Program-made: the position numbers and the translations under genes | DNA from: Caulobacter rhizosphaerae | Lineage (GTDB): Bacteria > Pseudomonadota > Alphaproteobacteria > Caulobacterales > Caulobacteraceae | DNA: 64,000 nt | Assembly (NCBI RefSeq): GCF_010977555.1 | Contig: NZ_CP048815.1 | Span: 5,138,501-5,202,500, forward strand | Direction of reading: 5' to 3' | Shown: positions 45,958 to 51,840 of the stretch, one piece after another | Layout: every line of letters begins with the position of its first letter | How positions within the stretch are numbered: the first letter of the stretch is position 1 | Notes under the pieces: generated by a model | Seen by the model: only the letters and a program-made list of their open reading frames with translations | The model's database searches: none | Told to the model about the DNA's origin: nothing

Positions 45958-46794
45958 ATGTGTCGCAAGCGCGCGCTCCTCGCAACCGTTCTTGGCCCCC
46001 TGCTCGCGTCCGGCGTGTGGATGGCGGCGCCGGCCCATGCCGCCGACAAGCCCGCGCCATCCGCTCCGGTCGCCGCGCCCTCCGCCGCCGCGCCTGAGAC
46101 GCCGCGCAAGGCCACGCCCGCCGAACGGGCCGAGGTCCAGCGGGCCGATCCCCTGACCCGAATGGCCTTCTGGTCGAACGAGGTCGAGCGCGATGGTCGC
46201 GACATCGAGGCCGGCGTGGGCCTGTCCCAGGCCCTGCGCGCCCTGGGCCGTTATGACGAGGCGGCCGACGCGGCCGCCCGCGTGCTGATCGTCGCCCCCG
46301 ACAGCTACGACGCCCTGATGGAGGCGGCGCGGGCCAACGTGGCGCGCGGCCAGGGCTTCTACGCCATCGAACCCGGCCGCAAGGCCGCCGCCCTGCAGCC
46401 GCGCGACTGGCGGCCCCTGTCGCTGCTGGGCGTGGCCTACGAGCAGGCCAAGCGCGACGACGAGGCCCTGGCCGCCCATCGCCAGGCCGTGGCGTTGGCT
46501 CCGGCCGAGGCGGTCCCCCTGGCCAACCTGGCCATGCACCTGGCCTCGACCGGCGACCTACCCGGCGCGGAGAAGCTTCTGCGCCAGGCGACGGCCCTGC
46601 CCACCGCCACCATCCAGGTGCGCCAGAACCTGGCCCTGGTGATCGGGCTGCAGGGGCGCCTCGACGAGGCCGAGAGGCTGGCCCGCCAGGACCTGCCGCC
46701 GGAGTCGGTCGACAACAACCTGGCCTGGCTGCGCGCCGCCGTCGGCCAGGCCAGCGCGACCCGGTCGTACGACGCGGTGAAGGCGGGCGGCTAG
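45958..46794 (+). CDS. Exported TPR-repeat protein (TadD-like)
   Basis: The product is 278 residues with a signal peptide (LLATVLGPLLASGVWMAAPAHA), a Pro/Ala linker and about five tetratricopeptide repeats (VGLSQALRALGRYDEAADAAARVL, PLSLLGVAYEQAKRDDEALAAHRQAV, PLANLAMHLASTGDLPGAEKLLRQA). TadD proteins of Tad pilus loci have this design, and the tad genes begin 1.5 kb downstream beyond an insertion sequence, on the opposite strand. TadD membership is inferred from context. Confidence 0.85.
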   Translation: MCRKRALLATVLGPLLASGVWMAAPAHAADKPAPSAPVAAPSAAAPETPRKATPAERAEVQRADPLTRMAFWSNEVERDGRDIEAGVGLSQALRALGRYDEAADAAARVLIVAPDSYDALMEAARANVARGQGFYAIEPGRKAAALQPRDWRPLSLLGVAYEQAKRDDEALAAHRQAVALAPAEAVPLANLAMHLASTGDLPGAEKLLRQATALPTATIQVRQNLALVIGLQGRLDEAERLARQDLPPESVDNNLAWLRAAVGQASATRSYDAVKAGG

Positions 46795-46808
46795 AGGGCC
46801 CGGCGTGC

Positions 46809-46835
46809 GTTTCTTGGCCGCTACCGCCAAGAAAC
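46809..46835. terminator. Hairpin after the TPR gene
   Basis: A perfect 10-base stem (GTTTCTTGGC / GCCAAGAAAC) with a 7-base loop lies 15 bases past the TPR stop. There is no T-run, so its role as terminator is uncertain. It sits 33 bases left of the IS inverted repeat. Confidence 0.45.
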
Positions 46836-46936
46836 CGAGATTGAGAACGTCAGCCCAGGGTGATGGGGTGGACGCCCCCCGACGGCATCTACGTGCCAGA
46901 GTGAGGTGTGTTGAACTTCACTCGAGGGAGGCGCCC

Positions 46937-47962
46937 ATGGGCGAGCTTACCATCATCGGGCTGGATATCGCGAAGTCAGTATTCCAGGCCCACGGAGCCG
47001 ATGCAGCCGGCACGGTTATATTCCGGAAGAAGCTTGGGCGAGGCCGGCTGCTGGCGTTTTTCGCCGGGCAGCCTCGCTGCTTGGTCGCCATGGAGGCCTG
47101 CGCCGGAGCCCATCACTGGGGCCGTGAGCTGGAGGCGCTCGGCCATACGGTCAAATTGATCCCGCCGGCCTACGTGAAGCCCTTCGTGAAGCGGCAGAAG
47201 AACGACGAGGCCGATGCGGAGGCCATCTGCGAGGCGGCCCAGCGGCCGACGATGCGCTTCGTGCCCGTGAAGAGCCGCGAGCAACAGGCCAGCGGGGTGG
47301 TGTTCCGCGCCCGGGATCTGCTGGTGCGCCAGCGCACGCAGATCATGAACGGCCTGCGCGGCCATCTGGCCGAGTTCGGGTATGTCGCCCCAAAGGGGGT
47401 GATGTACGTCCAGCGCCTGGTTGCCGAGATCGAGGATCCCGCGAGCCAACTGCCGCCGGCTGCCCGCGTTAGCCTGCAAGTCATGGTGCGGATGCTGGCC
47501 GCGCTGGAGACGGAGATCGCCAGCCTCGATGCCGAGATCGCCCGTCGCGCCAAGGAGGATCTTGTCGCTCGGCGGCTGATGACGATCCCAGGCATTGGAC
47601 CTGTCACGGCCTCGGCCATGGTCGCCCTGGCCCCGGGAGCAGAGTCCTTCCGCTGCGGGCGGGACTTCTCGGCCTGGTTGGGCCTAACGCCTGTCCAACG
47701 ATCGAGCGGCGGCAAACAGAAGCTGGGCCAGATCACCAAGGCGGGCGAGCGAACCTTGCGACGATTGCTGGTGATCGGCGCCAGCGCCGTGATCAAGCAG
47801 GCGCTCATCCGTGGCGCGCCGCCTGGATCATGGCTGGCGCAGATGCTGGCCCGCAAGCCGCGAATGCTCGTGGCTGTGGCCTTGGCCAACAAGACCGCGA
47901 GGATCATTTGGGCGCTCCTGGCTAGAGGCGGCGTCTACAGGGCTCCGGCGCTGACGGCCTAA
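46937..47962 (+). CDS. IS110-family DEDD transposase
   Basis: The product is 341 residues. The RuvC-like N-terminal domain has IIGLDIAKSVFQAHG (first Asp), CLVAMEACAGAHHWGREL (Glu) and KNDEADAEAICEAA (Asp pair). The C-terminal Transposase_20 domain has LMTIPGIGPVTASAMVAL, FSAWLGLTPVQRSSGGKQKLG and the catalytic Ser region GERTLRRLLVIGASA. The family is RNA-guided: a bridge or seek RNA from the element's non-coding end specifies target and donor. GGGAGG precedes the ATG at 46937. It looks full-length. Confidence 0.95.
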   Translation: MGELTIIGLDIAKSVFQAHGADAAGTVIFRKKLGRGRLLAFFAGQPRCLVAMEACAGAHHWGRELEALGHTVKLIPPAYVKPFVKRQKNDEADAEAICEAAQRPTMRFVPVKSREQQASGVVFRARDLLVRQRTQIMNGLRGHLAEFGYVAPKGVMYVQRLVAEIEDPASQLPPAARVSLQVMVRMLAALETEIASLDAEIARRAKEDLVARRLMTIPGIGPVTASAMVALAPGAESFRCGRDFSAWLGLTPVQRSSGGKQKLGQITKAGERTLRRLLVIGASAVIKQALIRGAPPGSWLAQMLARKPRMLVAVALANKTARIIWALLARGGVYRAPALTA

Positions 47963-48201
47963 CAGCCGCCGGCTCCAGAGGCGTCGAAGCGTAGTCGGAC
48001 GACGGAGGGTATGGCGCACAGTCGGTGAGACGGGATCGGGAAAACCAGGGCTTACCACCGTGCCTCTCTTGAGCACGCTATGGGTGATTTGGACCTGATC
48101 CGCGAACTTCCATACAGGCCAGCGCTGAAGGGCGCACAACAGGCCGGACAGATGGCAGCATCCGATCGAGCGTCAAAGCTTCAAATCCGTCTTGCGCTGA
48201 A
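47963..48201 (+). ncRNA. Candidate guide (bridge/seek) RNA region of the IS element
   Basis: About 240 non-coding bases separate the transposase stop from the right inverted repeat, against only 57 on the left. In IS1111-type elements the guide RNA is encoded at this end. No structure was computed; I see short self-complementary stretches but cannot define RNA ends or guide loops. The call rests on element type and layout. Confidence 0.4.
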
Positions 48202-48243
48202 GGGGGCGTCCACAGATGGTTAGCGGCCTTTCCCAAATAACCT

Positions 48244-48276
48244 CCGTCATTCCCGCCCTTGTGGCGGGAATGACGG
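48244..48276. repeat. REP-like palindrome between the IS and tadC
   Basis: CCGTCATTCCCGCC and GGCGGGAATGACGG form a perfect 14-base stem with a 5-base loop, 30 bases outside the right IS repeat and 70 bases past the tadC stop. It may terminate tadC-side transcription (no T-run) or be an IS target-type palindrome. Confidence 0.75.
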
Positions 48277-48345
48277 ATCAATTTGATGAGCGGAGAATCT
48301 CCGAAACGTCCGACTAGGCTCGTAGGCCGCCCCGGCGCTATCGCC

Positions 48346-49323
48346 CTAGCGTCCCTTCATCACGTCCTGGATCTTGATGATGGCCGGTCCCATGATCACG
48401 ATGAACAGAACGGGCAGGAAGAACACGATCATCGGCACGGTCAGCTTGGCCGGCAGGGCCGCGGCCTTCTTTTCGGCGGCCGACAGGCGCAGGTCGCGGT
48501 TTTCCTTGGCCATCACCCGCAGGGCCGCGCCCAGCGGCGTGCCGTAGCGTTCGGCCTGGATCATGGCGGTGACCACCGAGCGGATGCCGGGATGGTTGGT
48601 CCGCCGGGCCAGGCCCTCATAGGCCAGGCGCCGCTCGGGGAGGTAGCTGAGCTCGGCGGTCAGCAGGCTGAGTTCCTCGGCCAGCTCCATCGAGGCCGAG
48701 CCGACCTCGGAGCCGACCTTGGCGATGGCCGCCTCGATCGACATGCCGCTCTCGACGCAGATCAGCATCAGGTCCAGGGCGTCGGGGAACGCCGCGACGA
48801 TCGACTCGCGGCGCTTCTGGGCGGCGTTGGAGATGTAGATGTTGGGCGCGTAATAGCCCGCCGTCAGGGCCAGAAAGCAGATGGCGATCTTCTGCATCGT
48901 CAGCAGGCCGAAGCCGTTGACGACATAGAGGTAGAACGCCGTCACCACCGCGAACGCGAACGGCATCACGAAGCGGAAGAAATAGAAGGTCGAGACCGGC
49001 TTGGGGCCGCGGAAGCCGGCCTGGGCCAGCTTGTCGACGACCTTGGGATCCTCCAGCAGCCTGGACAGCTGCAGGCGCTCGACGACATTCTTGTACATGC
49101 CCTCGTCGACATGGCGCAGCGAACCGCCGCCGCCGCCCTTCTGGGCCATGGCCTCGCGCGAGCGGCGGCGCAGCTCCTCGCGGCGGTTGGCCACCGACTT
49201 CAGCCGGCCCTCCAGGTTGTTGTTGCTCATCATCGGCGAGGCCAGGGTGACGATGGTGGCGAACACCACGATGGCGATGAAGGCGCTGAACAGGGTCTGG
49301 GGATTGGTGAGCATATGGATCAT
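48346..49323 (-). CDS. tadC: Tad pilus inner-membrane platform protein TadC
   Basis: This 325-residue T2SSF-domain protein has membrane helices near both ends (FSAFIAIVVFATIVTLA, FAFAVVTAFYLYVV, PMIVFFLPVLFIVIMGPAI) and the GspF-like ALDLMLICVESGMSIEAAI. With TadB it forms the platform for the CpaF motor. GGGAGG precedes the ATG. It is the last gene of the cpaB-tadC unit. Confidence 0.93.
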   Translation of the reverse strand: MIHMLTNPQTLFSAFIAIVVFATIVTLASPMMSNNNLEGRLKSVANRREELRRRSREAMAQKGGGGGSLRHVDEGMYKNVVERLQLSRLLEDPKVVDKLAQAGFRGPKPVSTFYFFRFVMPFAFAVVTAFYLYVVNGFGLLTMQKIAICFLALTAGYYAPNIYISNAAQKRRESIVAAFPDALDLMLICVESGMSIEAAIAKVGSEVGSASMELAEELSLLTAELSYLPERRLAYEGLARRTNHPGIRSVVTAMIQAERYGTPLGAALRVMAKENRDLRLSAAEKKAAALPAKLTVPMIVFFLPVLFIVIMGPAIIKIQDVMKGR

Positions 49324-49335
49324 GATCCGCCTCCC

Positions 49336-50316
49336 CTAGAACTTGAAATTGATCATCTTGCGCATCACGAAGATGCCCAGGCTCATCCAGAAGCCCGCGG
49401 CCATCAGCATCAGGTGGCCGCGCGGGTCGCTGAACATCGGCGCCATGTAGCTGGGCGCGACGATCGAGATCAGCGCAACGACGCTGGGCGGCAGGCAGCC
49501 GATGATGAAGGCCGAGGCGATGGCTTCAGCCGACAGGGCCTTGATCTTCTCGACCATCAGCTTGCGGGCTCGCAACACGGCCGACAGGTTGCCCAACGCC
49601 TCGGCCAGGTTGCCGCCGGTCTTGGCCTGGATGGTCAGGACGATGGTGAAGAACCGCAGCTCGTTGGTCGGCATGCGCTCGTACATGCGCTCCAGCGCCT
49701 GGTCCATCGACATGCCCATGCCGGTGTTCTCGACCAGGACGCGGAACTCGCCGGCCAGGGGCTCGGGGCATTCCTTGCCGATGATCTTCAGGCAGTCGTG
49801 GACCGGCAGGCCCGACTTGATGCCGCGCACGATGATGTCGATGGCGTCGGAAAAGGCGTTGGTGAACTTCTTGGTGCGCGCCTTGGCCATCATGCCGACC
49901 ACCCAGCGGGGCAGGCCGAAACCGGCCGCGAAGGCCGCGCCCAGGGCGATGATCGGCATCTGGCGCAGCACCAGCAGCACCAGGCCGACGGACAGGCCGA
50001 TCACCCCGCTGATGATCCAGAACATCCGGACGTTCTCGCCCAGGCCGGCCGCCCTCAAGCGCGCGGCGATGGTCAACGTCGCCTTCTTCTTCTTCTGGTC
50101 CTGTTCCTTCAGGGTCTTGAGGATCTGCTTGCGACGGGCGTCGGGCGTGCTGGCCGCGGCCTTGGCGCGAGCGGCGACGGTCTGGCGGTCGCCGCCCGCG
50201 ATCAGTTGGGCGCGCTTGACCGTCTTGGCCGAGCCGCTGTCGCCGCCGCCGGCCAGCACGAAGCCCAGGCCCGCGATGGTGATGAAGCCGAGGACGCCGG
50301 CGAGGATGAACAGCAT
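49336..50316 (-). CDS. tadB: Tad pilus inner-membrane platform protein TadB
   Basis: This 326-residue T2SSF protein has an N-terminal helix (LFILAGVLGFITIAGLGFVLA), a basic cytosolic region and the GspF motif DAIDIIVRGIKSGLPVHDCL, then two C-terminal helices. It is paired with tadC, 12 bases downstream, and follows cpaF by 3 bases. Confidence 0.93.
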   Translation of the reverse strand: MLFILAGVLGFITIAGLGFVLAGGGDSGSAKTVKRAQLIAGGDRQTVAARAKAAASTPDARRKQILKTLKEQDQKKKKATLTIAARLRAAGLGENVRMFWIISGVIGLSVGLVLLVLRQMPIIALGAAFAAGFGLPRWVVGMMAKARTKKFTNAFSDAIDIIVRGIKSGLPVHDCLKIIGKECPEPLAGEFRVLVENTGMGMSMDQALERMYERMPTNELRFFTIVLTIQAKTGGNLAEALGNLSAVLRARKLMVEKIKALSAEAIASAFIIGCLPPSVVALISIVAPSYMAPMFSDPRGHLMLMAAGFWMSLGIFVMRKMINFKF

Positions 50317-50319
50317 CGC

Positions 50320-51840
<1,521 letters not shown>

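Follow-up and report, generated by a model that had tools for sequence, protein, structure and literature searches.

The window analysed here, a stretch of 64,000 nucleotides from the chromosome of Caulobacter rhizosphaerae, carries at positions 46861–48216 of the + strand a whole insertion sequence of the IS1111 group of the IS110 family. The element is intergenic and flanked by convergent genes, and its neighbours on the − strand at 48346–51840 resemble genes for the assembly of Flp (Tad) pili (TadC, TadB, CpaF-like). The gene and the termini of the element are as follows.

46861–46867, + strand: left terminal extension TGATGGG (7 bp), placed by comparison with relatives
46868–46879, + strand: left sub-terminal inverted repeat, 12 bp, pairing with the right repeat at 12/12 bases
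46937 (ATG)–47962 (TAA), + strand: DEDD (RuvC-like) transposase/recombinase of 341 aa, from the open reading frame and profile matches
48202–48213, + strand: right sub-terminal inverted repeat, 12 bp, pairing with the left repeat at 12/12 bases
48214–48216, + strand: right terminal extension AGA (3 bp), placed by comparison with relatives

The initial annotation of this sequence had described the gene as encoding a full-length DEDD transposase with its motifs, a description that the profile searches uphold: the product contains the Pfam domains PF01548 and PF02371, matches the NCBIfam model NF033542 ‘IS110 family RNA-guided transposase’ with 339.6 bits against a cut-off of 140, and has the C-terminal GL-P----S(t)G motif, as GLTPVQRSSG, at residues 249–258. 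Residues D10, E53, D90 and D93 were also located; the roles that we assign to them and to GLTPVQRSSG in the transposase are presumed from the family. Among transposases of solved structure, those of ISCro4 (E 1e-10) and IS621 (E 6.3e-8) are nearest in sequence, chiefly via the C-terminal half, the N-terminal alignment with ISCro4 being weak (9.4 bits). The element had also been called intact, with which the open frame, the family motifs and a second copy about 300 kb away on the host chromosome, 100% identical (1356/1356; positions 1–1361 of 1362 in another search), all agree. Such an identical copy suggests that the element has moved recently and, together with the open frame and its motifs, argues against a decayed or immobile remnant retained for some host function, a reading that the position between convergent genes would fit but that we consider scarcely credible. 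Two further copies in the same genome (L003 and L004) show 71–72% identity. A more remote relative, about 68% identical over 290 bases, is present at six or more places in another genome of the genus (G018:C1), and among the best 5000 plasmid records none encoding a relative exceeded 80% identity. The transposase frames of the relatives L058, L063 and L068 contained in-frame stops as read by script (1, 14 and 1, respectively).

Relatives were collected by a scan of genome contigs, in which 433 places encoded one; the best 80 of the 433 were kept, and 84 loci were examined, comprising L001–L004 from the element's own genome and L006–L085. Clean ends were obtained in 72/84 loci: in three no pair of repeats turned up within the stretch scanned, and nine were dropped because their ends were judged to be misassigned (L019, L026, L032, L034, L036, L038, L060, L062 and L076). 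A manual shift of one base was applied to L044 and L057. The perfect 12-base inverted repeats noted at the outset are not a product of chance, since similar repeats stand at matching places in the clean-ended relatives. The element that had been drawn from repeat to repeat (46868–48213) is real, but its ends lie further out, because copies found in different sites agree over an additional 7 bp to the left and 3 bp to the right of the repeats. These extensions are consistent across copies, and 7 bp on the left with 3 bp on the right is the published IS1111 convention in the sections of Siddiquee et al. (2024; PMC11187229) drawn on here. The first two bases of the left extension are also the first two bases to the right of the element (TG), and the exact cut was therefore set inside the shared TG by that convention. 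The non-coding lengths had been put at about 240 bases after the gene and 57 before it, and measurement gave the same picture, with 57 nt from the left repeat to the gene and 239 nt from the stop codon to the right repeat. Across the 72 clean loci the stop codon lies 232–278 nt from the right repeat and the start of the left repeat 63–153 nt from the gene, and the longer non-coding region is downstream of the gene in 72/72; the search extended 220 nt upstream of the gene and 520 nt downstream, limits that a much longer upstream region would escape.

This is the IS1111 layout that the initial annotation had recognized, in which a guide-like RNA region lies downstream of the gene. Folding of the right end with covariance from relatives, as had been proposed, uncovered a shared covarying structure, and the two outcomes that had been named as contrary, a right end devoid of conserved structure and an RNA-like part upstream of the gene, were not encountered, the upstream search covering 220 nt. 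The features predicted in this non-coding region (NCR) are listed below.

48009–48014 (GTATGG) with 48110–48115 (CCATAC), + strand: outer stem P1 of the predicted guide RNA, from covariation
48033–48040 with 48094–48101, + strand: predicted seekRNA core stem P2, with 6/8 pairs changed on both sides
48050–48059, + strand: candidate T guide GCTTACCACC, able to pair with the top strand of the target, with 9/10 bases fitting the window's own target
48060–48076, + strand: predicted hairpin between the target guides (GTGC/GCAC), from covariation
48077–48086, + strand: candidate B guide GCTATGGGTG, in the sense of the target top strand, with 7/10 bases fitting the window's own target

RNAalifold, applied to 20 right ends, predicted 43 pairs, in 12 of which both partners had changed. 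A 32-pair structure over 28 sequences had 98.1% of its cells paired against 93.7% in shuffles that ignore relatedness, 11 pairs changed on both sides against 6.5, 48 cells changed on both sides against 15.9 and a covariation of 0.209 against 0.121, with 0/500 shuffles as high on each of these four measures; further pair types numbered 25 against 22.5, and 15/500 shuffles were as high. The rows of both alignments, of 20 and 28, were picked by hand. Sliding the partners by 1–3 columns left 24–42% of cells paired, a control that favours the structure as it had been derived from overlapping sequences. Folded alone, the window copy gave modest z-scores of −2.32 (48026–48106), −0.97 (48011–48117) and −0.99 (48115–48165), and folding of a single sequence is in any case weak evidence for a structure. 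A search of Rfam returned no match.

The T and B guides were first spotted by eye in the NCR. The flank-match test was accordingly one in which NCR positions were left free and the flank lengths and strands had been chosen after the guides were seen; it compares the NCR with the reverse complement of the element's own right flank (T) and with its own left flank (B), for 70 elements (L031 and L075 being left out for short flanks), 51 of them non-redundant. Over these 51 elements, own flanks fitted the own NCR better than did the flanks of other elements, with z of 11.9 (T) and 10.0 (B), and the own-flank score was reached in 0/2000 permutations; in controls with the strands swapped, or with flanks taken about 10 bases outward, z was −0.6 to 1.7. 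The best match lay at the guide offset in 40/51 elements for T (76–95) and in 31/51 for B (103–120); two further T matches and three further B matches lay beyond these offsets, in longer NCRs. Only in 28/51 did an element's own flank pair outscore every other pair. For the left flank of the window copy the best position-free match was CCAGGG at 48045 (6/8) as opposed to 5/8 at the B guide, so the left guide of this copy rests on its kin. The target of L009 fits the window's B guide at 10/10 bases.

A covariation scan of NCR columns against 30 target positions (14,387 cells) was carried out on 68 elements, L059 and L063 also being left out by hand, with an effective number of 34.8. Twelve of the 13 strongest cells lay on two guide diagonals, one joining target positions −5 to 0 with 48079–48085 (B; the window has one extra base, 48081) and the other joining +7 to +2 with 48050–48055 (T). 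The remaining cell paired the core base with 48153, further downstream; the 14th was one off a diagonal and the 15th (target 0 with 48057) on one. The copies L003 and L004 of the same genome carry AATGTCCG and CCTGAGCG at the corresponding guide places, and these fit their own target, CCCTGAG^CGGAC, which is unlike that of the window element (here and below ^ marks the insertion point). Guides thus differ together with targets among copies in one genome, in keeping with the earlier expectation that the element would have a guide and target specificity of its own, and the difference between the window element and L003/L004 reads as a natural re-direction of the guide inside a single genome. Matches between NCR and flank could in principle be an artefact of shared ancestry or composition, with related elements lying beside related host sequences and the NCR being conserved for another reason such as regulation, and it is true that the loci are related, as the effective number of 34.8 of 68 indicates, and that by eye some groups sit in similar repeats. 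An artefact of that kind is at odds with the loss of signal when the flanks are moved outward by about 10 bases or read on the opposite strand, with the arrangement of the strongest cells as two ordered diagonals across the junction and with the joint change of guide and target in same-genome copies, and we think it very improbable. The comparisons support the alternative that the NCR encodes a guide RNA in which the top-strand match lies 5′ of the bottom-strand match.

The site in which the element lies comprises the following.

46849–46860, + strand: left half of the target, GTCAGCCCAGGG, from comparison of sites
48217–48226, + strand: right half of the target, TGGTTAGCGG, from comparison of sites
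48217–48322, + strand: host repeat of 106 bases starting at the insertion point, from its copies in the genome

Comparison of sites indicates that the target of the element is the non-palindromic GGG^TGGnnaGCGG, written out as GGGTGGTTAGCGG. Eleven close-kin sites were available, those of L006–L012 and L039 (at least 76% protein identity), of the own-genome copies L001 and L002, and of a 91% copy, L119, in G026. By hand count GGG stands to the left of the junction in 11/11, TGG to its right in 9/11 and GCGG at +6 to +9 in 9/11, the exceptions being L006 (TGA, no GCGG), L039 (GGG for TGG) and L010 (GTGG for GCGG). In its different location, the 100% identical copy of the same genome also lies at a GGG^TGG core, and the 91% copy L119 retains both guides in a site reading GGG^TGGTGAGCGG. 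The same-locus comparison that had been suggested for fixing the exact ends and target yielded no exact empty site among the relatives' genomes compared. The right flank could be aligned only from 48342–48356 on in G002, G020, G022, G033 and G035, and the left flank in only two (G022 and G033) of six relatives compared, where the intergenic sequence looks unrelated; the left flank at 46780–46866 has no second copy in the element's own genome. Two copies of the host repeat, L098 and L099, were rejected as empty sites, being paralogous look-alikes, L098 having one extra base at the site.

The initial annotation had placed the element between two palindromes and had seen in these a type of target that such elements are known to use. 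Both palindromes are present, at 46809–46818/46826–46835 and 48243–48257/48263–48277, but they were rejected as the target, lying 25 and 26 bp from the insertion point while the sites share non-palindromic bases; the broader idea that the target is associated with a repeat is nevertheless probably right. The palindromes bear also on the idea that the protein recognizes its site as a DNA hairpin and that RNA is secondary, for the right one falls within the host repeat that begins at the insertion point and the repeats near relatives' sites look partly palindromic by eye. With the window palindromes at such distances, with GGG^TGG..GCGG shared by sister sites and with sites that track the guide sequence across groups, we see only a slim chance that hairpin recognition is correct, and RNA-guided choice of the site is the reading that we retain.

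The 106-base host repeat has one full-length copy of 92% identity, at G000:C1:998824–998929, and partial copies elsewhere; the repeat (48217–48322; L098, L099, L100) holds the palindrome TCCGTCATTCCCGCC..GGCGGGAATGACGGA and has many partial copies in the genus. In the element's own genome the exact 13-base target GGGTGGNNAGCGG showed no enrichment, with 7 sites as compared with 9 of its reversed control. A looser motif, GGGTSGNAAGCGGACN{0,1}TT, occurred at 12 sites against 0 for the reversed control in 37 genomes of the genus and was absent, like the control, from the element's own genome (0 against 0); a stricter version that ends in ATT was found in 1/190 genomes of the class as against 2/37 of the genus. 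The motif AAGCGGACN{15,19}NGGGTGG occurred 53 times against 20 for the reversed control in the genus, with no enrichment in the own genome (2 against 3). There is thus moderate support for the target being, apparently, part of a degenerate, genus-level host repeat. As judged by eye, three subgroups of insertion sequences (L003, L004, L031, L033, L042 and L050; L021, L023, L024 and L027–L029; and the group of L001) appear to have their insertion points at three different places in a single repeat motif, GGGTSGNAAGCGGACATT.

Two further features of the right end concern the joining of the element's own termini.

48148–48155, + strand: donor-guide-like segment ACAGATGG, with 7/8 bases equal to the joined ends of the element (..ACAGA/TGA.., the slash marking the join)
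48192–48197, + strand: −35-like TTGCGC, 17 nt before a −10-like GATGAT

The donor-like segment, in which 48153 lies, agrees with the element's own end in 68/68 elements at position −2 and in 65/68 at position 0; its agreement with the first target base is 64/68. Only four changes on the transposase tree underlie these figures (five where the guide base of position 0 is concerned). In the donor scan the first cell had an excess of 0.57, and the second, at 0.36, was level with the cell taken for noise (0.36). These values lend support, short of proof, to the suggestion that the segment recognizes the right end of the element itself together with the core base. For a second donor guide, for the other strand (CCAT, 48110–48113), a search gave no support. 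The first core base differs between the left extension and the right flank (T as against C/G) in 7/68 elements (L020, L023, L024, L027, L028, L029 and L039), as though strand exchange had left a core mismatch that was later resolved.

Joined, the ends of the element would read ..CCACAGA/TGATGGGG.., and the −10-like GATGAT would arise only on such joining, from 48215–48216 and 46861–46864. In 59/72 loci TTG stands exactly 17 nt ahead of the hexamer spanning the joined ends, and among 18 spacer lengths compared, that of 17 nt had the highest mean match to TTGACA (2.86; the next, 2.17, at 18 nt). By analogy with the family, the junction may act as a promoter.

We are highly confident that the element is an autonomous insertion sequence of the IS1111 group and that an RNA guides the recombination by which it moves. 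Our current working model is that the ends join in a circle and so form a promoter, from which the transposase mRNA would be made together with the downstream RNA, the latter being processed to a seekRNA or bridge RNA. The T guide would pair with the top strand of the target and the B guide with the bottom strand, across the insertion point, and this pairing would pick GGG^TGGnnaGCGG, as the sequence covariation supports. A further segment of the RNA may read the element's own right end and core base, a step for which there is support from few independent changes. The DEDD/serine transposase would, as in the family, exchange strands at the xG core, and the circle would be inserted in one orientation.

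Within the IS1111 family, a seekRNA has been described for ISEc11, ISKpn4 and ISPa11 (Siddiquee et al., 2024; PMC11187229). As far as the relevant sections of that report go, the window element resembles these elements in its sub-terminal inverted repeats (11–13 bp in that group), its 7/3-bp extensions, its downstream NCR, its DEDD transposase (330–350 aa, with GL-P----SG) and the natural re-direction between relatives. The top-strand match precedes the bottom-strand match in both, an order that the same sections give for IS1111 seekRNAs and as the reverse of that in IS110. It differs from them in its target and guide and in being known from sequence alone. With the IS621 bridge RNA, in the parts of Durrant et al. 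(2024; PMC11208160) considered, it shares separate target- and donor-reading parts and a shared core, whereas its RNA region is downstream, its target guides are in the opposite order and only one donor strand guide is supported in its clade. Its probable insertion into dispersed host repeats is also a likeness to the REP-targeting elements ISPa11, ISPpu9, ISPpu10 and ISRm19, as presented in the portion of Tobes & Pareja (2006; PMC1525189) used here, from which the window element departs in its host genus and in the more degenerate repeat.

The mechanism, the layout and the guide order are thus already published, and in kind the element is ordinary; what is new is its own guide and target and the covariation of the donor segment in this clade. 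Among the open-access papers listed, as far as titles and the openings of abstracts show, there was no study of this clade; ISfinder and subscription journals lay outside that search, and the element may already be named. By eye, the relatives' guides seem to be for three positions on one dispersed repeat family, GGG^TSGNAAGCGGACATT, ..AAG^CGGAC.. and ..AAGC^GGAC... We put forward, as a proposal whose prospects we hold to be evenly balanced, that in this IS1111 clade one downstream RNA reads both target and donor, its target guides being free to change while a one-strand donor guide tracks the terminal extension, and that guides evolve by moving along the host repeat and not by leaps to unrelated targets. 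Reading of the donor by the RNA had been proposed earlier in one published paper, which in the part referred to here relied on manual inspection of a few elements. The element offers a compact recombinase with a readable guide and two guide variants in one genome, and the set of about 70 natural element–flank pairs in register helps to define which IS1111 guide positions matter and to test whether the IS1111 RNA also reads the donor.
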